From Psychroflexus gondwanensis ACAM 44 (GTDB lineage: Bacteria > Bacteroidota > Bacteroidia > Flavobacteriales > Flavobacteriaceae): a stretch of DNA of 64,000 nucleotides. Of the stretch, positions 18,546-54,627 are shown one piece after another; position 1 is the stretch's first letter; each line of letters begins with the position of its first letter. Where the stretch lies: assembly GCF_000355905.1 (NCBI RefSeq), contig NZ_APLF01000002.1, forward strand, positions 62,001-126,000, read 5' to 3'. The notes beneath the pieces were generated by a model that saw only the letters and a list, made by a program, of their open reading frames with translations, was not told the origin of the DNA and did no database searches. Both the position numbers and the translations under genes were made by a program.

Positions 18546-18815
18546 TTATTTTCTTAATCCTAAATCTTTTACAATAGCTCTATATCTCAGGATATCTTTC
18601 TTCATCAGATAATCCAATAGGTTTCTTCTTTTACCTACAAGCTTTACTAGAGAACGTTCAGAATTATAGTCTTTTCTGTTTGTTTTGAGGTGTTGAGAGA
18701 TGTATTCAATTCTCCTGGTCATCAATGCGATTTGACCTTCGGCAGAACCAGAATCTTTCTCGTCTTTACCGTGTTTAGCAAATAATTTGCCTTTTTCTTC
18801 TAATGTTAAGTACAT
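18546..18815 (-). CDS. rpsO: Ribosomal protein S15
   Basis: 89 residues, the universal S15 length. Typical segments are FAKHGKDEKDSGSAEGQIALMTRRI, ISQHLKTNRKDYNSERSLVKLVGKRRNLLDYL and the C-terminal YRAIVKDLGLRK. S15 binds 16S rRNA in the small-subunit platform and helps nucleate assembly. It is followed by a terminator and then pnp, an order conserved across many bacteria. Confidence 0.97.
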   Translation of the reverse strand: MYLTLEEKGKLFAKHGKDEKDSGSAEGQIALMTRRIEYISQHLKTNRKDYNSERSLVKLVGKRRNLLDYLMKKDILRYRAIVKDLGLRK

Positions 18816-18915
18816 GCCAATATTGTTTCAATAATTTTTATGCTAGAATAGGTTTTCTATTCAATTGTGCAAAAGTATGCTTTTAAATTGAAATTGAATA
18901 TTAAATTTATAAAAA

Positions 18916-44114: not shown

Positions 44115-45380
44115 ATGGAAGTAGAAACCACTTATTTTCCAAAACTTGAGGATGTGATAAAAGCATCCGAAAATCTTAAAGGGGTTGCCGTTGTTACTCC
44201 TCTAAGCCATAATTTGAGGTACTCAAAACAATACAATTCCAATGTTTTTTTCAAAAGAGAGGATTTACAACAAGTTCGTTCCTATAAAATAAGAGGAGCT
44301 TACAATAAAATGTCTTCACTTTCAGAAGATGAAATAAAAAACGGGATTGTTTGCGCTAGTGCTGGAAATCATGCCCAAGGTGTTGCCATCTCTTGTAAAG
44401 TCTTAAAGATTAAAGGAACAATTTTTATGCCTTGCCCAACACCTAATCAAAAAGTAGATCAGGTGGAAATGTTTGGGGAAGAATTTATAAATATCGTTCT
44501 AGTTGGAGATAGTTTTGATGATGCTTATCATGCAGCCATGACACAACGCGACAGATTAAACCAGACCTTCATACATCCGTTTAACGATCCAAAAGTCATT
44601 GAGGGACAAGCGACGGTTGGTCTTGAAATTATAAACCAATCTGAAGAAAAAACAATAGATTATGTGTTTCTTCCCGTTGGAGGCGGTGGATTAGCTTCAG
44701 GGCTTTCCTCTGTTTTTAAACATTTATCTCCATCTACCAAAATAATTGGGGTAGAGCCTAAAGGTGCTCCCTCCATGTCAAATTCTATAAAGAATGATAA
44801 AAATATTGAACTGAATACGATAGAAAGCTTTGTAGACGGAGCGGCTGTAAAACGTGTAGGTGATTTGACCTTTTCTATTGCCAAGCAAAACTTGCACGAT
44901 ATGATAACTGTAGATGAAGGTCATATTTGCCAGACTATATTAGATTTATATAATAAAGAAGCGATTGTAGCCGAACCTGCAGCAGCTCTTAGCATTGCAG
45001 CTTTAGAGCATTATGCAGAAGAAATTCAAGGTAAAAATGTAGTCTGTATTATAAGTGGGAGTAACAACGATATTACGCGAACTGCTGAAATAAAAGAACG
45101 AGCTATGCTGTATGCTCAGTTAAAACACTATTTTATTGTCAAATTCCCTCAGAGGGCTGGAGCTTTGCGCCAGTTTGTTGCTGAAATTTTAGGGCCTGAT
45201 GACGATATTACTTACTTTCAATATACTAAAAAAACCAATAGAGAAAATGGTGCCGCAGTAGTAGGGTTAGAACTGAAATCGAAAGAAGACTTAGAACCGT
45301 TGGTAAAGCGTATGAAAGACAAAAAGTTTTATGGAGATTACTTAAACAATAAACCAGATTTGTTTCAATTTTTAGTTTAA
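44115..45380 (+). CDS. ilvA: Threonine ammonia-lyase (threonine dehydratase), biosynthetic
   Basis: 421 residues. The PLP lysine is in QVRSYKIRGAYNKM; SAGNHAQGVAISCK and the glycine loop LPVGGGGLASGL complete the active site. The C-terminal ~90 residues (YFIVKFPQRAGALRQFVAEILG) form one ACT-like regulatory domain, fitting the shorter class with allosteric control by isoleucine. It converts threonine to 2-oxobutyrate. It begins one base after the ilvC stop and is the last gene of the operon. No terminator is visible before the arginine leader. Confidence 0.95.
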   Translation: MEVETTYFPKLEDVIKASENLKGVAVVTPLSHNLRYSKQYNSNVFFKREDLQQVRSYKIRGAYNKMSSLSEDEIKNGIVCASAGNHAQGVAISCKVLKIKGTIFMPCPTPNQKVDQVEMFGEEFINIVLVGDSFDDAYHAAMTQRDRLNQTFIHPFNDPKVIEGQATVGLEIINQSEEKTIDYVFLPVGGGGLASGLSSVFKHLSPSTKIIGVEPKGAPSMSNSIKNDKNIELNTIESFVDGAAVKRVGDLTFSIAKQNLHDMITVDEGHICQTILDLYNKEAIVAEPAAALSIAALEHYAEEIQGKNVVCIISGSNNDITRTAEIKERAMLYAQLKHYFIVKFPQRAGALRQFVAEILGPDDDITYFQYTKKTNRENGAAVVGLELKSKEDLEPLVKRMKDKKFYGDYLNNKPDLFQFLV

Positions 45381-45413
45381 CGCTAATAATTGGAATAAAT
45401 ATTTGATCTTTAA

Positions 45414-45443
45414 TTGGTTATATGAATAATAATTTTATATTTG
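45414..45443 (+). promoter_or_regulatory. Promoter of the arginine operon
   Basis: TTG at 45414-45416, 19 bases, then TATATTTG at 45436-45443. Both elements and spacing match the Bacteroidota TTG/TAnnTTTG consensus, the best match in the window. Transcription should start near 45447, giving a leader of about 300 bases before the first arginine gene. Confidence 0.65.
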
Positions 45444-45447
45444 AAGT

Positions 45448-45513
45448 ATGAAATTACCCAAAAATAAAATTTTACCACACAATCTAATAATAGAAATTCT
45501 CCGCCGTAGCTAG
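45448..45513 (+). CDS. Candidate arginine leader peptide 1 (21 residues)
   Basis: ATG 45448 opens a 21-codon ORF ending EILRRS then TAG. The two adjacent Arg codons (CGC CGT, 45502-45507) sit directly before the end, where a leader peptide senses charged tRNA. A U-rich stretch (TAGTTTTTATC) follows. The predicted transcription start lies at or just before this ATG, so translation would have to be leaderless. Short ORFs arise by chance; support comes from the Arg pair, the position, and a second similar ORF downstream. Confidence 0.45.
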   Translation: MKLPKNKILPHNLIIEILRRS

Positions 45514-45566
45514 TTTTTATCTCTCCAAAGCTATAATTTCTTTTATTATAATTTTATTTTATCATT

Positions 45567-45659
45567 ATGTCTATTCACATCACATATAAAAATTCACTAA
45601 TTAGTTTTAAGACTGCTATTCCTACGATTAGTTCTTTTAATCTATTTCGTCGCCCCTAG
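45567..45659 (+). CDS. Candidate arginine leader peptide 2 (30 residues)
   Basis: ATG 45567 opens a 30-codon ORF ending NLFRRP then TAG at 45657-45659. Arg codons CGT CGC (45648-45653) and the stop overlap the left side of the GC-rich palindrome at 45652-45663, which is exactly where a stalled ribosome would change RNA folding. CGN codons are unusual in such an AT-rich leader. This is the stronger of the two leader candidates. It lies 89 bases before the first arginine gene. Confidence 0.55.
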   Translation: MSIHITYKNSLISFKTAIPTISSFNLFRRP

Positions 45660-45723
45660 GGGCTATTCTATTCTACAGAACTTAGATGTGTTCGGTTCTA
45701 CTTTTCAAACTCTAATTTTTTTT
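45652..45723 (+). promoter_or_regulatory. Structured end of the arginine leader (candidate attenuator)
   Basis: Palindrome GCCCCTAGGGGC (45652-45663), strikingly GC-rich against its surroundings, folds as a 4-bp stem with a CTAG loop. It is followed by AGAAC/GTTCT (45677-45681 with 45695-45699) or the alternative GAAC/GTTC. A T8 run lies about 15 bases further (45716-45723). The spacing is too long for a textbook intrinsic terminator, so the mechanism remains open. Confidence 0.4.
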
Positions 45724-45748
45724 CTTAATTTTTAAAACATCAATCACA

Positions 45749-46372
45749 ATGAGAATTCTTATTGCTGATAAGTCGCATAGTATTTATGCTGAAATTATTT
45801 GCCAAGCTATAGCTAAAGCTGCACAAATTAGGGGTACTGGTATCGCTAAGCGAGAGCCTGAATACATTAACGCCAAAATGAAAAAGGGTGATGCTGTTAT
45901 CGCTTTAGACGGAGATCAGTTTGCAGGCTTCTGTTACATTGAATCTTGGAGCCATGGTAAATTTGTAGCCAATTCAGGCTTAATTGTAGATCCCGATTAT
46001 CGAAATATTGGCTTGGCAAAACAGATTAAGCAGAAAATTTTTGATCAATCCAGAATTAAATTCCCAGACGCTAAAATATTTAGCATTACCACGGGATTAG
46101 CTGTTTTGAAAATGAATAGCGATTTGGGTTACAAACCTATGACCTTTTCTGAATTAACAGATGATCAGTCTTTTTGGAACGGTTGTCAAACCTGTAAAAA
46201 TTACGATATACTTCAACGAACAAATCAGAAAATGTGCTTGTGCACAGGAATGCTTTTTGACCCTAAAGCCAAACAAGAACCTAAAACAAAAAAATACCCA
46301 TTTGATAAAAAAATATGGAAGCGAATAAAAGAATTGAAACAGTCCGTTTTTCTAAAAAAAGATAAAAAATGA
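45749..46372 (+). CDS. GNAT acyltransferase, probable N-acylglutamate synthase of the arginine pathway
   Basis: 207 residues. GNAT acyl-CoA signature is in SGLIVDPDYRNIGLAKQIKQKIF (about 76-98). An unusual C-terminal cysteine cluster, Cys146-x2-Cys149 and Cys163-x-Cys165 (GCQTCKNYD...KMCLCTG), could bind a metal. No other gene here encodes the first step (acylation of glutamate), and ArgJ is absent, so by position it should make N-acetyl- or, given the argF' enzyme, N-succinylglutamate. From memory, GNAT genes at this site in Bacteroides have been given this role; I cannot verify that here. It overlaps argG by 4 bases. Confidence 0.8.
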   Translation: MRILIADKSHSIYAEIICQAIAKAAQIRGTGIAKREPEYINAKMKKGDAVIALDGDQFAGFCYIESWSHGKFVANSGLIVDPDYRNIGLAKQIKQKIFDQSRIKFPDAKIFSITTGLAVLKMNSDLGYKPMTFSELTDDQSFWNGCQTCKNYDILQRTNQKMCLCTGMLFDPKAKQEPKTKKYPFDKKIWKRIKELKQSVFLKKDKK

Positions 46373-47553
46373 AAAAATTAGTTATAGCCTACAGTGGCGG
46401 TTTAGATACTTCATACTGTGCAGTAAGCCTATCAAAAGCAGGATACGAAGTACATGCCGTAAGTGTAAATACAGGAGGATTTACTTCAGATGAAATTAAA
46501 AAAATCAAAGCTAAAGCCCTTAAAATGGGTGTAGCTACCTATCAAAATATCGATGCTATTCAATCCTATTATCAAAAGGTGATTAAATATCTTATTTATG
46601 GTAATGTTCTAAAAAACAATACTTATCCATTGTCTGTAAGTGCTGAACGTATTATTCAAGCTATTGAAATTGTTCAATACGCTAAAAGCATCAATGCCCA
46701 ATATATAGCTCACGGCAGTACAGGTGCTGGTAATGACCAAGTGCGTTTTGATATGATCTTTCAAATTTTAGCACCTGAAATAGAAATTATAACACCAATA
46801 AGAGATGGAAAATTAACCAGACAAGAAGAAATAGATTATTTGAAGTCCAATGGTATTGAGATGCCATGGGATAAAGCAAAATATTCTATCAATCAAGGAC
46901 TGTGGGGCACAAGTGTTGGTGGCAAGGAGACTTTGACCTCTCAAAATCCATTACCAGAATCAGCATATCCTTCACAACTTAAAAAAGAAGTAGGTGAAAA
47001 AGTTACCTTAAGCTTTGAAAAAGGTGAATTTGTAGCTTTAAACAGCACTAAAAATTCACCAGAGAAAAATATCGAGTTATTAAACAAACTAGCCTCGGCT
47101 TATGCGATTGGTAGAGATATTCATGTAGGGGATACCATTGTTGGCATTAAAGGGAGGGTTGGCTTTGAAGCCGCTGCAGCTCTAATTATTATCAAAGCCC
47201 ATCATTTACTGGAAAAACATACACTCACCAAATGGCAACTTCAGCATAAAGAATACTTATCTAGTTTCTATGGGATGCATTTACATGAAGGTCTGTATTT
47301 AGATCCGGTGATGAGAGATACGGAGGCCTTTTTAGAAAGCAGTCAAGCCAAAGTTTCTGGAAATGTGGTTGTGAGTTTAAAGCCTTATCATTTTATGTTG
47401 GATGGTATAGATTCTAAGCATGATTTAATGAATGCCAAATTCGGGAGTTATGGAGAAGAGAACACAGGATGGACAGCAGCAGAAGCCAAAGGATTCATAA
47501 AAATATTTGGTAATCAGAATAAAATCTATCAACAGGTAAATTCAGAATCATGA
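46369..47553 (+). CDS. argG: Argininosuccinate synthase
   Basis: 394 residues. The ATP pyrophosphatase P-loop is VIAYSGGLDTSYCAVSL. IAHGSTGAGNDQVRFD and YSINQGLWGTSVGG are diagnostic, with HVGDTIVGIKGRVGFEAAAALI in the synthetase domain. It joins citrulline and aspartate with ATP. It overlaps the GNAT gene by 4 bases and argC by 4 bases, a tightly coupled operon. Confidence 0.96.
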   Translation: MKKLVIAYSGGLDTSYCAVSLSKAGYEVHAVSVNTGGFTSDEIKKIKAKALKMGVATYQNIDAIQSYYQKVIKYLIYGNVLKNNTYPLSVSAERIIQAIEIVQYAKSINAQYIAHGSTGAGNDQVRFDMIFQILAPEIEIITPIRDGKLTRQEEIDYLKSNGIEMPWDKAKYSINQGLWGTSVGGKETLTSQNPLPESAYPSQLKKEVGEKVTLSFEKGEFVALNSTKNSPEKNIELLNKLASAYAIGRDIHVGDTIVGIKGRVGFEAAAALIIIKAHHLLEKHTLTKWQLQHKEYLSSFYGMHLHEGLYLDPVMRDTEAFLESSQAKVSGNVVVSLKPYHFMLDGIDSKHDLMNAKFGSYGEENTGWTAAEAKGFIKIFGNQNKIYQQVNSES

Positions 47554-48527
47554 TACAGGTAGGTATAATAGGCGGTGCAGGATACACGGCGGGAGAATTG
47601 ATAAGACTACTACTCAATCATCCTGAAACTCACATTAATTTTATTTACAGCACTTCCAATGCTGGTCATAAAATTAGTAAAATCCATCAGGATTTAATTG
47701 GGTCAACAGACTTGATGTTTTCAAGCAAAATAAATCCAGAGATTGATGTTTTGTTTTTATGTCTAGGTCATGGTAATTCTAAAGCATTTTTAGAAAAAAA
47801 CAGCTTTTCTGAGACCACAAAAATTATTGATTTAAGCACTGATTTTAGATTAGAAGCAGATTCTAATTTAAATGGAAAAGCCTTTGTTTATGGTTTGCCA
47901 GAATTACAAAAAGAAGCTATTAAAAAAGCGAATTATATTGCAAATCCAGGTTGTTTTGCAACAGCAATTCAATTGGCATTATTACCACTAGCCAAATCCA
48001 ATGGGATAAAAGATGATCTACATATTAACGCAGTGACAGGAGCTACTGGGGCAGGAACCTCTTTATCAGCAACAACACATTTTGCTTGGAGAGACAACAA
48101 TTTTTCGCATTACAAAGCATTCACACATCAACATTTAGCGGAGATTAACCAAACTGTAAATCAATTACAGTCTAATTTTAATTCAGAAATTAATTTTATG
48201 CCGAATCGCGGGAATCATTCAAGAGGTATTTTCTCTACACTTTACACAAAGTTTGAAGGGAGTATAGAAGAAGCAAAAAAAATGTATTCAGATTTTTATA
48301 AGAATGCAGCATTTACTTTTGTTTCCGACGATCCTATTCATTTAAAGCAAGTGGTAAACACCAATAAATGTATTCTTCATTTACATAAACACAACGACAA
48401 ACTATTAGTTACAAGTATTATTGATAATCTTTTAAAAGGGGCTTCAGGGCAAGCAGTTCAAAATATGAATTTGATTTTTGGTTTTAATGAAAAAGAAGGC
48501 TTACAGTTGAAAGCAAATTATTTTTAA
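47550..48527 (+). CDS. argC: N-acyl-gamma-glutamyl-phosphate reductase
   Basis: 325 residues. The N-terminal Rossmann fold is QVGIIGGAGYTAGELIRLLLNHPE; the catalytic Cys is in NPGCFATAIQLALLPL. DLSTDFRL and AVTGATGAGTSLSATTHFAWR are typical of the Bacteroidota branch. It reduces the acylglutamyl phosphate to the semialdehyde; the acyl group is likely succinyl here. It is coupled to argG by a 4-base overlap and followed by a short repeat before proC. Confidence 0.95.
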   Translation: MIQVGIIGGAGYTAGELIRLLLNHPETHINFIYSTSNAGHKISKIHQDLIGSTDLMFSSKINPEIDVLFLCLGHGNSKAFLEKNSFSETTKIIDLSTDFRLEADSNLNGKAFVYGLPELQKEAIKKANYIANPGCFATAIQLALLPLAKSNGIKDDLHINAVTGATGAGTSLSATTHFAWRDNNFSHYKAFTHQHLAEINQTVNQLQSNFNSEINFMPNRGNHSRGIFSTLYTKFEGSIEEAKKMYSDFYKNAAFTFVSDDPIHLKQVVNTNKCILHLHKHNDKLLVTSIIDNLLKGASGQAVQNMNLIFGFNEKEGLQLKANYF

Positions 48528-48540
48528 CAAGTTCACCAAA

Positions 48541-48573
48541 AACCTGTTAGTTCTAAAAACCTGTCAGGTGTTA
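48541..48573. repeat. Intergenic ACCTG-type short repeat
   Basis: AACCTGTTAG at 48541 and the dyad ACCTG-T-CAGGT at 48559-48569, separated by TTCTAAA. This looks like a worn copy of the AACCTGTCAGGTT-type short repeats I recall as dispersed in flavobacterial intergenic DNA. It is the only copy I noticed in this window. Confidence 0.4.
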
Positions 48574-48590
48574 ATAAAAAACACAACAAC

Positions 48591-49391
48591 ATGAAAATCG
48601 CAATCATAGGAACAGGAAATTTAGGGAAGTCCATCGCAAAAGGACTCCTTACAAATAATGCGATGACATCTTTATATTTAACCAAAAGAGATTTGAATGA
48701 TATTCAAGAATTTGATGGCTATAAAAACGTAACGTTAACTACAGAAAACCTTGAAGCTGTAAAACAATCCGATATTTTAATCTTTGCAGTTCAGCCAACA
48801 CATTTTGAACAAATCCTAATAGATATAAAGCCTTATCTAACAGAAAATCACATCTTAATATCAACAATAACTGGATTTTTAATTCCAAAGATTGAAGGTT
48901 TAGTTGGTAACGACCAGTTCATTATTCGAGCTATGCCAAACACAGCAATTGCTGTTGGAAAATCTATGACCTGTTTATGTAGTAATGAAAAAGGCGCTAA
49001 ACGCATAAAAGTTGCCGAAGCTATTTTTAATAGATTAGGACATACTTTGGCTATTCCAGAATCTCAAATGCAAGCAGCAACTGTAATTTGTGCAAGTGGA
49101 ATTGCCTTTTGGATGAGACTCATTCGCGCCTCAACTCAAGCCGCAATTCAACTAGGTTTTGATGCTAAAGAGGCCCAGGAACTGGCTATGTATACCAGTG
49201 AAGGTGCTGCCAATTTATTGATTACAAATGGTCTACATCCAGAAGAAGAAATTGACCGTGTGACTACGCCTAAAGGGTGTACCATTGAAGGCTTAAATGA
49301 AATGGAGCATAAAGGATTGAGCTCATCTCTAATACAAGGTATGGTCGCTTCATTTAATAAGATTAACAACATTAAAAAAGAACAGATATGA
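48591..49391 (+). CDS. proC: Pyrroline-5-carboxylate reductase paralogue within the arginine operon
   Basis: 266 residues. The fold is complete: KIAIIGTGNLGKSIAKGLL, IFAVQPTHFEQIL, IRAMPNTAIAVGKSMTCL, and CASGIAFWMRLIRASTQAAIQLGF replaces the usual SGSGPAYI block. The C-terminal RVTTPKGCTIEGLNEME replaces the GGTT motif of the proline-operon copy. It is clearly divergent from the 15.2 kb ProC. It could make proline from semialdehyde arising in arginine metabolism, or have another imine substrate. It overlaps argD by 4 bases. Confidence 0.85.
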   Translation: MKIAIIGTGNLGKSIAKGLLTNNAMTSLYLTKRDLNDIQEFDGYKNVTLTTENLEAVKQSDILIFAVQPTHFEQILIDIKPYLTENHILISTITGFLIPKIEGLVGNDQFIIRAMPNTAIAVGKSMTCLCSNEKGAKRIKVAEAIFNRLGHTLAIPESQMQAATVICASGIAFWMRLIRASTQAAIQLGFDAKEAQELAMYTSEGAANLLITNGLHPEEEIDRVTTPKGCTIEGLNEMEHKGLSSSLIQGMVASFNKINNIKKEQI

Positions 49392-50512
49392 GTATATTTA
49401 AAGTATATCCATTATTTGACGTTACACCTGTTAGTGCAAAAGATGTTTACGTTTACGATGATAAAGGCATTGAATATTTAGACCTTTATGGTGGACATGC
49501 AGTAATTTCTATTGGGCATTCCCACCCAACATATGTAGCTGCAATCACAGAACAAATTCAAACTCTCGGATTCTATAGTAATGCTATTCAGAATCCGTTA
49601 CAAGCTAAATTGGCTAATAAACTCGAAGCACTTTCTGCTTGTAAAGGCTACCACTTATTTATGTGTAGTTCTGGAGCAGAGGCTAATGAAAATGCTCTAA
49701 AATTAGCGTCGTTTCATAATCAAAAGCACAGAATTTTAGCCTTTAAAAATTCCTTTCACGGTCGTACTTCGGCAGCGGTGGCAGCCACAGATAATACAAA
49801 GATTGTAGCGCCTTTAAATGCTCAACAAGGTGTTGATTTTGTAGAGTTGGGTGACTTAAATGCAGTTGAAGATATTCTAAAACAAAACGAAACTTGTGCA
49901 GTCATTGTTGAATGCATTCAAGGTGTTGGTGGTTTAGACCAAAGTACAACTGAGTTTTGTCAAGGTTTAGAAAAACTTTGTAAACAATACAATACAGTAT
50001 TAATTGCTGATGAAGTACAGTCTGGTTTTGGTAGAACTGGTGATTTTTTCGCTTTTGAAAAGCATAATTTTAAACCGGATATTATTTCAATAGCGAAAGG
50101 CATGGGCAACGGCTTCCCAGTTGGTGGTATTTTAATCCACCCAAGTATCCAAGCATCTTACGGACTGTTAGGCACTACTTTTGGAGGAAACCATTTAGCT
50201 TGTGCAGCTACGCTTTCTGTCCTAGACGTCTTAGAGAATGAAAACTTGATGCAAAATGCCAAAGAAATGTCTAATTATTTTGTTGGTAAAGCTGAAAAAA
50301 TCCCAAAATTAAAAGCTGTTAAAGGACGTGGATTGATGCTAGGTTTGGAGTTCGATTTTCCCGTTGCTATGTTAAGGAAAAATCTTCTTTATCATCAACA
50401 CATATTTACAGGAAGTTCTAAAAATCCTAATCTCATTAGAATTCTCCCACCTTTGACTATTCAAAAAAAACATATAGACTTCTTATTTGAAGCCCTAAAA
50501 CTAGAATTGTAA
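49388..50512 (+). CDS. argD: N-acyl-ornithine aminotransferase
   Basis: 374 residues, class III PLP aminotransferase. Motifs are YLDLYGGHAVISIGHSHP, FMCSSGAEANENALKLA, FKNSFHGRTSAAVAATDN, LIADEVQSGFGRTGDFFAFE and the PLP lysine in ISIAKGMGNGFPVGG. It converts N-acylglutamate semialdehyde to N-acylornithine. In this context N-succinylornithine is the likely product. It is coupled to proC and one base from argF'. Confidence 0.94.
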   Translation: MSIFKVYPLFDVTPVSAKDVYVYDDKGIEYLDLYGGHAVISIGHSHPTYVAAITEQIQTLGFYSNAIQNPLQAKLANKLEALSACKGYHLFMCSSGAEANENALKLASFHNQKHRILAFKNSFHGRTSAAVAATDNTKIVAPLNAQQGVDFVELGDLNAVEDILKQNETCAVIVECIQGVGGLDQSTTEFCQGLEKLCKQYNTVLIADEVQSGFGRTGDFFAFEKHNFKPDIISIAKGMGNGFPVGGILIHPSIQASYGLLGTTFGGNHLACAATLSVLDVLENENLMQNAKEMSNYFVGKAEKIPKLKAVKGRGLMLGLEFDFPVAMLRKNLLYHQHIFTGSSKNPNLIRILPPLTIQKKHIDFLFEALKLEL

Positions 50513-50513
50513 A

Positions 50514-51455
50514 ATGAAAAAATATACCACTATATCAGATATTTCAAATCTTAGTGAGACTATTATGCAAGCCATATCGCTGAAAAACAATCCTTTTCTT
50601 TATTCGGAATTAGGCAAGCATAAAACCTTAGTCATGTTATTTTTTAATGCCAGCTTACGTACCCGATTAAGCACAGAAAAAGCTGCTAGAAACTTGGGTA
50701 TGGAAGTGATGATTTTAAATGTAAACGATGCATGGCAGTTAGAATTTGAAGATGGTACTGTTATGAACACCAATACTTCTGAACATATTAAAGAGGCGGC
50801 TCAAGTTATTTCGCAATATGCAGATGTGATTGCAGTTCGGGCATTTCCAACTCTAAAAGACAAGAAAAAGGACGAGTCTGAATATGTGTTGAATAGCTTT
50901 GTAAAATATGCATCGGTTCCAGTTATTAATATGGAAAGTGCAATGTCACATCCTTTACAAGCATTGGCAGATGCGATAACAATTTCAGAATTAAGCACAA
51001 AACGAAAGCCTAAAGTGGTATTGTCTTGGGCACCACATCCAAAAGCTTTGCCTCAAGCTGTACCCAATTCATTTGTTGAAATGATGCAGCTTTTGGAGGT
51101 TGATTTTTGTATCACGCATCCTAAAGACTATGAGTTAAACCCTGAAATTACTAAACACTCACAGATTAATTACAATCAAGAAGAAGCCTTGAAAGATGCT
51201 GATTTTGTTTATGTAAAAAATTGGAGTAGTTATAAGGAATATGGTCAGATTTTATCTCAAGATAACAACTGGAGAATGACCAAAGCTAAACTAGGCAATG
51301 CGAAATTTATGCATTGCTTACCTGTAAGGCGGAATGTGGTTGTTGAAGATGCTGTTTTAGATAGTGACAAGTCCATAGTGATGCAACAAGCTAATAACAG
51401 AACTTACGCTGCACAGGTGGTTTTGATGCAACTCGTAGAAGATTTAAATAAATAA
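50514..51455 (+). CDS. argF': N-succinylornithine carbamoyltransferase (argF' type)
   Basis: 313 residues. The carbamoyl-phosphate loop is FFNASLRTRLST (residues 43-54) and the C-terminal HCLPVRRN is typical of N-acylornithine transcarbamylases; HCLP is shared with OTCase. NMESAMSHPLQALADA is the acyl-branch version of the HPxQ motif. The specificity position, Glu92 in Xanthomonas N-acetylornithine and Pro90 in Bacteroides N-succinylornithine enzymes, is Ser89 here (NTNTSEHI). Published substitutions of Glu92 by Ser, Pro, Val or Ala switch the acetyl enzyme to succinyl, so succinylornithine is predicted. The product is N-succinylcitrulline. Confidence 0.9.
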   Translation: MKKYTTISDISNLSETIMQAISLKNNPFLYSELGKHKTLVMLFFNASLRTRLSTEKAARNLGMEVMILNVNDAWQLEFEDGTVMNTNTSEHIKEAAQVISQYADVIAVRAFPTLKDKKKDESEYVLNSFVKYASVPVINMESAMSHPLQALADAITISELSTKRKPKVVLSWAPHPKALPQAVPNSFVEMMQLLEVDFCITHPKDYELNPEITKHSQINYNQEEALKDADFVYVKNWSSYKEYGQILSQDNNWRMTKAKLGNAKFMHCLPVRRNVVVEDAVLDSDKSIVMQQANNRTYAAQVVLMQLVEDLNK

Positions 51456-51459
51456 AACC

Positions 51460-51474
51460 CTTCCCTCTGGGAAG
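51460..51474 (+). other. Small hairpin between argF' and argB
   Basis: CTTCCC-TCT-GGGAAG, 6-bp stem and 3-base loop, in the 25-base gap just before the argB start. No U-run follows, so it is more likely a processing or translation-tuning element than a terminator. Confidence 0.35.
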
Positions 51475-51480
51475 ATTAGT

Positions 51481-52263
51481 ATGGGAATGAAAACACTTAA
51501 AGTCATTAAAATCGGCGGGAATATCATAGATGATAATGAAGCTTTGTTAGGCTTTCTAAAAGACTTTTCAAACCTTAAAGGCCCTAAACTTTTGGTCCAT
51601 GGTGGTGGAAAATTGGCGACAGATTTGGCTCAAAAAATGGGTGTAGAAGTTAAAATGATTGATGGCAGACGTATAACCGATGTCCACACTCTAGATATAA
51701 TTGTTATGATGTATGCTGGTAAAATCAATAAAAACATAGTTGTAAATCTTCAGGCTAACCAATGCAACGCTATCGGGTTTTCGGGTGCAGATGGAAATAG
51801 CATCATTTCTACAAAAAGACCTACTACTCCTGTTGATTTTGGATTTGCAGGCGATGTGACTCAAGTCAATACAGAAGTTCTGGAATTATTGATTAACCAA
51901 AATATAACGCCAGTATTTTGTGCCATTACACATGATAAAAATGGACAACTTTTAAACACCAATGCCGATACCATTGCTTCAGAATTAGCTATCGCTTTGG
52001 CTAAGACCTACCAAACAGAATTATATTACTGTTTTGGAAAAAGTGGAGTTTTAAGGGATATAAACGATGAATTTTCAGTTATAGAATCCATAACTCCAGA
52101 TAATGTGCAAGAGTTAATTCAAAATAAAATAATTTCCGATGGTATGCTTCCTAAAATTAAGAATAGCATAAATGCCATTAATCATAGAGTCAATAAAGTC
52201 TGCATTGGCAAATCTGAAATGATTTTTAACCCATTTACATATTTTACAAGCATAACAAAATGA
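51481..52263 (+). CDS. argB: N-acylglutamate kinase
   Basis: 260 residues of the amino-acid kinase family: KVIKIGGNIIDD, LLVHGGGKLATDLAQKMG, MIDGRRITDVHTLDIIVM, NTNADTIASELAIAL and the C-terminal SDGMLPKIKNSINAI. It phosphorylates N-acylglutamate. The start at 51481 has an alternative ATG 6 bases later. Its stop overlaps the argE start by 4 bases. With argF' of succinyl type the substrate is likely N-succinylglutamate. Confidence 0.94.
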   Translation: MGMKTLKVIKIGGNIIDDNEALLGFLKDFSNLKGPKLLVHGGGKLATDLAQKMGVEVKMIDGRRITDVHTLDIIVMMYAGKINKNIVVNLQANQCNAIGFSGADGNSIISTKRPTTPVDFGFAGDVTQVNTEVLELLINQNITPVFCAITHDKNGQLLNTNADTIASELAIALAKTYQTELYYCFGKSGVLRDINDEFSVIESITPDNVQELIQNKIISDGMLPKIKNSINAINHRVNKVCIGKSEMIFNPFTYFTSITK

Positions 52264-53321
52264 TAGATAAACTAACAACTAAAGCCATCAACTTATTGAA
52301 ACAACTCGTAGAAACGCCATCTTTTTCTTTTGAAGAGGAACATACAGCGCAACTTATAGAGCATTGGTTTCAACATCAGAGCATTCCTTTTAACCGTCAA
52401 AAAAATAATATTTGGTCAACCAATGAATATTTTGATGAAAGTAAACCCACGATTTTACTCAACTCCCATCACGATACTGTGCAACCTAATAGTGGTTACA
52501 CCAAGGATCCATTTGAGGCTGTGGTTGAAGGCGGAAAGCTATATGGATTGGGAAGTAATGATGCTGGGGGATGTCTGGTCTCTTTATTAGCCACTTTCGC
52601 CTATTTTTATGCAAAGAAAGACTTGAAGTACAACTTAGTCATCGTAGCCTCTGCTGAAGAGGAAAACAGTGGCGATAATGGTTTGAATAGTATGTTGACC
52701 ATTATTCCCAAAATAGAGGTGGCTATTGTTGGTGAACCCACCTTAATGCAGCTTGCTGTTGCCGAAAAAGGCTTGGTTGTTTTTGATGCTAAAATAAAAG
52801 GTACACCTAGTCATGCTGCTCATCCTAATACCGACAATGCTATTTATAACTGCATACCCGTTTTACAATGGTTTCAAGATTATAAATTTGAACGAACATC
52901 GTCTGTTTTAGGTGATGTAAAAATGACCGTAACACAAATAAAGGCAGGTAAACAACACAACGCAATACCAGGGGAGGTGGAGTTGGTCGTCGACGTGAGA
53001 GTGAACGAATGCTATACCAACGAGGAAATTGTACAAACTCTTCAAGAAAATGCACCTTGCTCAAGTATTATACCTCGAAGTACTCGATTAAACTCTTCTT
53101 CTATTCCTCTCGAACACGAATTGGTGAAAGCGGGTACAGAATTGGGAAGGACAACCTATGGCTCACCAACGCTCTCAGACCAAGCGATATTAACTTGCCC
53201 TTCGTTAAAATTAGGTCCAGGCGACAGTACGCGATCGCATACTGCAGATGAATTTATTTATGTAAATGAAATTGAAGATGGGATTAAAACCTACATTAGT
53301 TTATTAAAAAAAGTACTATAA
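52260..53321 (+). CDS. argE: N-acyl-citrulline/ornithine deacylase, M20 family
   Basis: 353 residues. Metal-binding motifs are NSHHDTVQPN, GLGSNDAGGCLVSLL, SAEEENSGDNG with the catalytic Glu, and VGEPT; the C-terminal HTADEFI provides the last ligand. The dimerisation lid is in the middle (GTPSHAAHPNTDNAI). With an argF' pathway its substrate should be the acylcitrulline (probably N-succinylcitrulline), giving citrulline for ArgG. It is coupled to argB and followed by argH after 31 bases. Confidence 0.92.
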   Translation: MIDKLTTKAINLLKQLVETPSFSFEEEHTAQLIEHWFQHQSIPFNRQKNNIWSTNEYFDESKPTILLNSHHDTVQPNSGYTKDPFEAVVEGGKLYGLGSNDAGGCLVSLLATFAYFYAKKDLKYNLVIVASAEEENSGDNGLNSMLTIIPKIEVAIVGEPTLMQLAVAEKGLVVFDAKIKGTPSHAAHPNTDNAIYNCIPVLQWFQDYKFERTSSVLGDVKMTVTQIKAGKQHNAIPGEVELVVDVRVNECYTNEEIVQTLQENAPCSSIIPRSTRLNSSSIPLEHELVKAGTELGRTTYGSPTLSDQAILTCPSLKLGPGDSTRSHTADEFIYVNEIEDGIKTYISLLKKVL

Positions 53322-53352
53322 AACTGAAATTGGAACTAGTAAAACTACACTT

Positions 53353-54627
53353 ATGAAACTTTGGGACAAAGGTATTTCAATCGACAAAAAAATAGAACAA
53401 TTTACTGTTGGTAACGACCGTGAAATCGATTTACATATTGCTAAATACGATGTTCAAGCATCTCTAGCACATGCTAAAATGTTAAGGCACATCGGTATTT
53501 TAACTGGTGACGAATTAATTCTATTAGAACAAGGTTTAAAAGGTTTAGCACAACAAATTGAAAAAGGTACTTTTACAATTGAACCTCAGTTTGAAGACGT
53601 TCATTCTAAAATTGAATTTGAGTTGACCACTAGTTTAGGTGAAGTCGGTAAAAAAATTCACACGGCACGTTCTAGAAACGATCAAGTTTTGGTCGCTTTA
53701 CAGTTGTTTTATAAAGATCATTTAAAGGAAATTAAAACGAAAACGAAAACTTTTTTCGACACGCTTCTATCGCTTGCAGACTCTCATAAAAACTCTTTGC
53801 TTCCTGGTTACACCCATTTACAAGTGGCTATGCCTTCCTCTTTTGGTTTGTGGTTTTCAGCCTATGCTGAACAGTTAATAGACGATGTCTTTTTATTGGA
53901 TGCTGCCTTAAAAACGGTAGACCAGAACCCTTTGGGTTCCGCTGCTGGATATGGAAGTTCATTCCCCATAAATAGGGAGTTTACAACCAAAGAACTAGGC
54001 TTTTCGACATTAAAATACAATGTGGTAGCTGCTCAAATGAGTCGTGGTAAAAGCGAACGAACTTTAGCATTAGCTCTGGGAAGTTTATGCAATACTATGT
54101 CGCGTTTTGCTATGGATATCTGTTTGTATAACAGTCAGAATTTTGGATTTATTGGATTTCCAGACCAGTTGACTACAGGGAGTAGTATTATGCCACATAA
54201 AAAAAACCCTGATGTTTTTGAGCTTATAAGAGGGAAATGCAACAAAATTCAAGCTTTACATACCGAGATGGTTTTAATTACCAATAATTTGCCAAGCGGT
54301 TATCATAGAGACTTCCAACTACTAAAAGAAAACAGCATTGCAGCAGTTGAAGATGTAAAAGACATACTTGACATTTTTAATTATACTATTCAAAAAGTGA
54401 TTGTAAAAGACATTGATTTAACGGATGAAAAATACCAGCATTTATCTACTGTAGATAGCATAAATAATCTGGTAATTGAAGGAATGTCATTTAGAGAAGC
54501 TTATCAAACTATAGGGAAGCAAGTTGAAGAAGGGACCTATACTTCGGATTCTGCTAAAAGCCACACTCACGAAGGCAGTATAGGAAATCTCTGTTTAGAA
54601 GAAATAAAAGCTAAATTTCCAAACTAA
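53353..54627 (+). CDS. argH: Argininosuccinate lyase
   Basis: 424 residues of the fumarase/aspartase superfamily. EDVHSKIEFELT, HTARSRNDQVLVALQL, YTHLQVAMP and the catalytic-loop signature GSSIMPHKKNPDVFELIRGKC are all present. It splits argininosuccinate into arginine and fumarate. It is the last gene of the operon; its stop codon overlaps a strong terminator. Confidence 0.97.
   Translation: MKLWDKGISIDKKIEQFTVGNDREIDLHIAKYDVQASLAHAKMLRHIGILTGDELILLEQGLKGLAQQIEKGTFTIEPQFEDVHSKIEFELTTSLGEVGKKIHTARSRNDQVLVALQLFYKDHLKEIKTKTKTFFDTLLSLADSHKNSLLPGYTHLQVAMPSSFGLWFSAYAEQLIDDVFLLDAALKTVDQNPLGSAAGYGSSFPINREFTTKELGFSTLKYNVVAAQMSRGKSERTLALALGSLCNTMSRFAMDICLYNSQNFGFIGFPDQLTTGSSIMPHKKNPDVFELIRGKCNKIQALHTEMVLITNNLPSGYHRDFQLLKENSIAAVEDVKDILDIFNYTIQKVIVKDIDLTDEKYQHLSTVDSINNLVIEGMSFREAYQTIGKQVEEGTYTSDSAKSHTHEGSIGNLCLEEIKAKFPN

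Follow-up and report, generated by a model that had tools for sequence, protein, structure and literature searches.

The leader of the arginine operon of Psychroflexus gondwanensis ACAM 44 is best read as an arginine-responsive control region that is monitored by the ribosome, and from the comparison of sequences we put the probability of this reading at about 0.78. Two short ORFs ending in arginine codons, together with a folded RNA element, recur in relatives. This suggests that arginine is sensed through the movement of ribosomes along tiny ORFs and not through the usual repressor protein. In the Flavobacteriaceae genomes compared, where no ArgR was found, the leader and its RNA element go with the arg operon.

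The features are collected in Table 1, where the window is the whole stretch of 64,000 nucleotides that was analysed. An earlier note on this DNA had described a promoter of the form TTG-N19-TATATTTG, two ORFs of 21 and 30 codons ending in RRS-stop and RRP-stop, a GC-rich palindrome at the end of the second ORF, and a run of eight T before the first gene; all of these are present in the sequence. In the window ORF2 starts 53 nt downstream of ORF1 and has just two Arg codons. The product of the first gene, a GNAT acetyltransferase, is possibly the N-acetylglutamate synthase.

Table 1. Features of the arginine operon and its leader (positions in the window).
Feature	Position	Strand	Remarks
Promoter	45414..45443	+	TTG 45414-45416, N19, -7 box TATATTTG 45436-45443
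ORF1	ATG 45448 to TAG 45513	+	21 codons, MKLPKNKILPHNLIIEILRRS, ends ILRRS-stop; predicted leaderless leader peptide
ORF2	ATG 45567 to TAG 45659	+	30 codons, MSIHITYKNSLISFKTAIPTISSFNLFRRP, ends FRRP-stop; second leader peptide
B+C element matched by RNA model R1	45642..45701	+	63.2 bits, E 3.1e-14
Hairpin B (GCCC-CUAG-GGGC)	45652..45663	+	palindrome GCCCCTAGGGGC; encloses the Pro codon and stop of ORF2; from folding
B-C linker	45664..45676	+	13 nt; length almost constant in relatives
Hairpin C	45677..45699	+	6 pairs, 2-nt bulge, 2 pairs, 5-nt loop (UGUGU); from folding and covariation
Short pyrimidine tract ACTTTTC	45700..45706	+	directly 3' of hairpin C
T8 run	45716-45723	+	from the sequence; before the first gene
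GNAT acetyltransferase, first gene	45749..46372	+	Pfam PF00583 above cut-off; no NCBIfam match
argG, argC, proC, argD-like, N-acetylornithine carbamoyltransferase (argF'), argB, ArgE/DapE-like deacylase, argH	46369..54627	+	NCBIfam; the argD and argE assignments score under the curated cut-offs

Elsewhere in the window, the Rfam S15-Flavobacteria ribosomal protein leader (RF03161) is found at 18813-18877 on the reverse strand with 56.9 bits. The window also has ilv and leu genes; reading by eye, we saw no leader in front of them.

Relatives were collected through the GNAT gene. Homologues are present in 264 of 397 family genomes (E 1e-40), and were also taken from 8 of 27 genus genomes and from named contigs (the best 80 of 346 matches). 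The resulting 116 loci were reduced to 102 non-redundant Flavobacteriaceae loci by removing those with identical last 320 nt. An ORF of 19-27 codons was counted as ORF1 if at least two of its last eight codons were Arg and its start followed a promoter box by 3-7 nt, the accepted boxes being TAnnTTT(G/A), TAnnTTAG or TAnnTTAA.

A distinct, box-coupled ORF1 ending in arginine is found in 91 of the 102 loci, and in 81 it has at least three Arg. The figure of 91 is a lower bound, as L049 and L103 have an Arg-ending ORF at the place of ORF1 with no recognised box. It is corrected from a looser scan, for any box-coupled short ORF with at least two Arg in the last eight codons, that gave 95 of 102 loci but included 14 picks of ORF2. 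Dinucleotide-shuffled leaders gave a mean of 1.55 and a maximum of 6 of 102 in this looser scan over 20 rounds, and the reverse strand gave 3 of 102. The claim that paired arginine endings exceed chance holds, as most relatives have the two ORFs with such endings at matching positions. With this conservation and these controls, the idea that the ORFs arose by chance in AT-rich DNA is untenable: nothing is left in its favour, and we give it a negligible probability. A box-coupled ORF1 is missing from 11 loci, and in two of these (L007 and L097) the box is, by eye, 4 nt before ORF2. Two further loci, L153 and L158, have by eye a single GTG-started Arg-rich ORF located 4 nt after TAGTTTTA and the box-like TTAGTTTG, respectively.

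The distance between box and ORF1 is narrowly fixed. It is 4 nt in 69 of the 91 loci and 4-5 nt in 80, and the start codon is ATG in 90 of them. Further, the strict pattern TAnnTTT(G/A)+N4+ATG occurs in 56 of 102 leaders, while shuffled leaders give a mean of 0.3 and a maximum of 2. In Flavobacterium the sigma-A box TAnnTTTG is described as sitting at -12 to -5 (PMC9723704), and in F. johnsoniae boxes 4 or 5 nt from the start have been taken as a mark of probable promoters (PMC6847099). Because this published geometry is combined with the conserved 4-5 nt spacing, ORF1 is predicted to be leaderless, its start codon lying at the first base of the RNA. The coincidence of first ATG and transcription start had been raised as an objection to the leader. 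The coincidence itself is predicted here as well; as an objection it falls away, since the spacing is a conserved feature, and it becomes a predicted leaderless leader peptide instead. Leaderless mRNAs are uncommon in this group: they are put at 5.5% in F. psychrophilum (PMC9723704), and in Bacteroides thetaiotaomicron about 3.7% are given as having a 5' UTR shorter than 10 nt (PMC7366714). A hairpin at the stop of ORF1 was also considered and gave no signal, with 66 of 95 loci against 71.7 in shuffles (the 95 include the 14 mis-picks).

ORF2 ends in RRP-stop in 80 of the 102 loci and in RP-stop in 89. In a search 15-45 codons back from its stop, the most distant in-frame NTG start lies at 31 codons in 56 loci, and over all 102 it is TTG in 54, ATG in 26 and GTG in 22. 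In the 90 of 102 rows with a final Pro, the fraction of Arg is 0.99 at codon -2 and 0.90 at codon -3, and extra Arg peaks are seen at codons -4, -7, -8 and -12, all outside hairpin B. For ORF1 the fractions at codons -2 and -3 are 0.77 and 0.78 (calculated on the 95 uncorrected picks, 14 of them ORF2); the GNAT gene, as background, has an Arg fraction of 0.034. The leader does contain short ORFs enriched in codons for the end product of the operon.

The choice of arginine codons differs between leader and genes: in the leaders they are chiefly CGC and CGT, in the genes chiefly AGA, with CGC making up 208 of 452 Arg codons in the ORF1 picks vs 49 of 650 in GNAT. At the same leader position CGT, CGC, CGA and AGA replace each other synonymously. 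The first three of these would presumably be read by one tRNA with the anticodon ICG. The conserved start position, the frame and the synonymous Arg changes are indirect signs that the leader may be translated. An alignment of relatives had been proposed as a check, in which the RR-stop endings and the palindrome should persist while other codons drift, and among the Flavobacteriaceae this is what is seen.

Fungal arginine attenuator peptides sense free arginine as nascent peptides in the exit tunnel, and an Arg-rich nascent peptide could act in this way here. The frequent RRP-stop ending would agree with it. However, the other residues drift, the number and position of Arg vary, and the constancy of the RRP codons can be put down to hairpin B, with which they overlap; in the class, moreover, Arg-rich endings recur without a common peptide motif. 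We consider such sensing improbable, and prefer reading of the arginine codons by the ribosome. In one clade the Arg codons of ORF1 seemed, by eye, able to pair with those of ORF2; such pairing is absent from the window and was set aside.

The end of ORF2 lies in the RNA element. Hairpin B in relatives is of the type GCCC-NUAA-GGGU, enclosing the Pro codon and the stop. Its pairs are preserved in 87.8% of cells (99 sequences), with zero two-sided changes. Some loci (for example L017, L020, L052 and L106) have retained hairpin B, as CGCCCUUUGGG or CGCCCUUUUGGG, and lost its stop. Since the hairpin persists where the stop is gone, it may be the more constrained of the two, judging by these loci. 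The distance from CGCCC to the loop of hairpin C is 33 nt in 52 of 102 loci and 32-34 nt in 88, in a scan that covered only 22-55 nt upstream of the C-loop.

Hairpin C, which the earlier note did not describe, is the best supported structure of the leader as judged by the alignments. Over B and C together, 94.4% of the cells are paired in the 99 sequences, and this falls to 23.8-61.4% when the partner is slid. There are 47 cells with two-sided changes, all in C, vs 7.4 in whole-structure shuffles, where 0 of 500 were as high. Two of the five covariation measures lie within the shuffles, namely the number of pairs changed on both sides (66 of 500 as high) and the pair types (262 of 500). The alignment of 99 sequences was fitted to the model; an unfitted MAFFT alignment of 59 gave a similar picture, with 30 two-sided cells vs 6.0. 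On the long alignment RNAalifold recovered hairpin C alone. The loop and bulge of C are conserved in sequence, and the pyrimidine tract that follows has T in 77, 90 and 88 of 102 loci at three consecutive positions, then mainly A. A third hairpin, A, lies within ORF2 and is mostly at one place: a stem of at least 6 is found in 90 of 102 loci vs 40.5 in base shuffles. In the window this hairpin is weak. Compensated stems were seen by eye. No Rfam covariance model, T-box included, matched the region 45380-45780 up to E 5.

Two other roles for parts of these hairpins were discarded. A kissing interaction between the loop of B (UAAG) and CUUA of hairpin C, noticed by eye, fails where the loop is UUA or UUU. 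The AGGUG of hairpin C resembles a Shine-Dalgarno site. Psychroflexus has AGAUG instead, and the opposite arm has changed to match (GC to AU), which favours pairing over the Shine-Dalgarno-like reading.

The conserved loop and bulge of C would also be expected if B and C formed a protein-binding RNA element that regulates the operon, with the arginine codons as a by-product of its sequence; CGTCGCCC indeed supplies hairpin B and the last Arg codons alike. This can hardly account for Arg codons beyond B, which are found at the end of ORF1 as well as at -4, -7, -8 and -12 of ORF2 and show synonymous changes; hairpin C, moreover, lies at varying distances from the gene start. We judge this explanation unlikely, and continue with a leader that is read by ribosomes.

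A covariance model of B and C, R1, was built from 59 sequences, with L001, identical to the window sequence, in the training set. It matches all 99 of the Flavobacteriaceae relatives given to it (of 116; the 59 training sequences are included) and does not match L143. In the family R1 is found in 246 of 397 genomes, three of which have two matches. Its presence follows that of the GNAT gene: R1 is found in 239 of 264 GNAT carriers vs 7 of 133 genomes without GNAT (odds ratio 172), and lies 44-142 nt upstream of the GNAT match in 16 genomes compared. The seven genomes with R1 and no GNAT at E 1e-40 are G049, G110, G178, G279, G301, G351 and G372, and some of their matches are weak. In the genome of the window the sole other R1 match is weak and within coding sequence. 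In a sample of the order, R1 occurs in 25 of 296 genomes, 22 in the family and 3, weak, outside it. Matches at L118 and L140 (inside coding sequence), L141 (antisense in an ORF) and L142 (no arg gene) were taken as chance.

Within the genus, R1 and GNAT are found in the same 8 of 27 genomes. The other 19 have neither the GNAT gene nor R1, and this suggests that arginine synthesis has been lost in much of the genus.

How the leader acts on the operon is a separate matter. The earlier note had stated that no textbook terminator is formed, and in the window region no intrinsic terminator was found before the first gene (0, with 0.0 expected from shuffles too). In the relatives, terminator-like matches occur in 23 of 102 leaders vs 9-19 in five shuffles, and none is clearly conserved. 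Of these 23 matches, 18 consist of hairpin B and the U-rich linker, which may be a weak terminator, and 0 are at hairpin C. The earlier proposal of a candidate leader-peptide attenuator stands in its first part, as conservation supports control by leader peptides; the term attenuator goes further than the sequences show, as no intrinsic terminator is clearly conserved, and the output might be termination, Rho action, RNA decay or an effect on translation. As the stretch from the C-loop to the gene is variable (58-116 nt), the site of output is probably at or before hairpin C.

Transcription attenuation would be the likeliest output, at somewhat better than even odds. As the main rival, the same arginine leader, read by ribosomes, could act through mRNA decay or Rho termination, which we regard as possible but rather doubtful. 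The lack of a clear intrinsic terminator would suit it, and there is a precedent in the Salmonella orf34-speF leader, where two consecutive Arg codons, Rho and RNase G are described as acting jointly (PMC6386406). Against it, hairpin C and the pyrimidine tract are conserved and positioned like a pause or terminator hairpin. In the window the RNA after C is AT-rich and C-poor, unlike the usual Rho site with the preference described in PMC6386406.

Equilibrium folding with masked ribosomes gave a mean probability of hairpin C of 0.39 in the free RNA, 0.58 with a ribosome at the stop, and 0.51 with one near codon -8. For hairpin B the modelled probability is 0.91 with a ribosome near codon -8 vs 0.79 in the free RNA. 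In these equilibrium folds no ribosome-driven switch or competing pairing was seen; hairpins A, B and C recur. As B would still fold with a ribosome near codon -8, the ribosome would have to stall on the last Arg codons to cover it.

The simplest reading of the attenuation is termination or pausing at hairpin C, gated by whether a ribosome occupies the last Arg codons and hairpin B. With a leaderless 5' AUG, a ribosome would begin ORF1 as the RNA emerges, and ORF2 would be initiated separately, in most relatives from a start codon other than ATG. When arginyl-tRNA is ample, ribosomes would pass the CGC and CGT codons and be released on arriving at the stop in hairpin B; B and C would then fold, and most transcripts would end or be lost near hairpin C. 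When it is scarce, a ribosome would stall on the last Arg codons before the Pro and stop, hairpin B would be covered, and the operon would be read. ORF1 might be a second sensor or an early device for loading ribosomes; a second threshold is among the guesses.

A search for the C-terminal domain of ArgR (PF02863) found it in 0 of 299 family genomes, that of the window included, while 8 of 14 control genomes were positive. In the class it is present in 2 of 60 genomes. We looked for leaders there at 24 argG loci, two of which were dropped as no GNAT was located. A short ORF with at least three Arg in the last nine codons precedes GNAT in 12 of the 22, where 1.7 are expected from dinucleotide shuffles, by a criterion first tried on the same loci; the other 10 lack such an ORF. 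The 12 loci belong to other families (L172, L174, L175, L178, L179, L181-L183, L185-L187 and L190). The only ArgR carrier among the 24 class loci (G731, L192) has no Arg-rich ORF, which fits, as a single case that proves nothing.

In another family of the order (f7), two of the 41 genomes have GNAT, and in both it is preceded by an Arg-rich ORF. The leaders of these two loci (L167 and L168) end in RRSRRRLRA-stop and RRFERRLRA-stop, and small inverted repeats are seen by eye downstream. In genus g128, probably Flavobacterium, 8 of 9 genomes asked have a GNAT match. Six of its loci (L143-L148) have kept the first gene of the operon and lack R1; 200-330 nt upstream of GNAT they share a different conserved short ORF, box-coupled and with CGG codons, and an inverted repeat GTACTTC..GAAGTAC. 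Two loci with weaker GNAT matches (L157 and L161) have neither the ORF with CGG codons nor R1. A class-wide hairpin with the loop Y-R-N-G-Y was found in 11 of 36 loci vs 0.7 in base shuffles, yet 7 of the 11 are Flavobacteriaceae, and elsewhere it is just a lead.

The classical amino-acid leader-peptide attenuators are those of the trp, his, leu and ilv operons of proteobacteria. The present leader resembles them in that a short ORF, followed by structured RNA, precedes a biosynthetic operon and carries codons for the end product of that operon. Unlike in those systems, the amino acid is arginine, there are two ORFs, the first is predicted to be leaderless, the control codons are at the very end and adjoin the stop, and there is no clear intrinsic terminator. 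In mycobacteria, leaderless polycysteine short ORFs attenuate operons. They resemble the predicted ORF1 in being short and leaderless, in abounding in a single amino acid and in preceding an operon, but are from another phylum and concern cysteine, and we know of no tandem ORFs or B+C element in that system. Among the papers searched for arginine or argG leader peptides we found no report for this bacterial group. A comparative paper by Lopatovskaya et al. from 2010 is said to treat attenuation in bacteria and may hold related predictions.

Compared by description only, orf34-speF is alike in that consecutive Arg codons of a short leader ORF read the supply of arginine, and its authors state that no Rho-independent terminator was found (PMC6386406). 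It differs in its target, ornithine decarboxylase, in having one ORF, located at +32 with a Shine-Dalgarno site, and in the place of the Arg codons, which are codons 12-13 and not at the end (PMC6386406). Closer by descent is F. psychrophilum, of the same family, for which strong clues to leader-peptide attenuation before amino-acid operons are described, as well as conserved structured 5' elements without Rfam matches, e.g. before pheA and hisG (PMC9723704). In the main text of that study the only mention of arginine concerns cyanophycin, and we found there no description of tandem or leaderless leader ORFs (PMC9723704).

A wider picture, which we hold tentatively and at a little under even odds, is that in much of the class Bacteroidia leader peptides would replace ArgR. 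In the Flavobacteriaceae they would form a two-stage sensor: a leaderless first peptide loads and gates ribosomes at the 5' end, and a second peptide has its stop in the loop of hairpin B. Beside it would lie a new ribosome-gated signal for termination or decay, distinct from an intrinsic terminator and made up of hairpin C, whose bulge and pentaloop are conserved, and the pyrimidine tract.

In textbooks, arginine synthesis stands for control by a repressor, ArgR/AhrC. If leader peptides did this work throughout the family, and perhaps the class, they would explain how the pathway is regulated in genomes without ArgR. Such a system would also be a clear example of leaderless translation with a function, in a phylum without Shine-Dalgarno sites and with few leaderless mRNAs. 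Further, B and C would give a defined RNA element for studying how Bacteroidota end or destabilise their transcripts.
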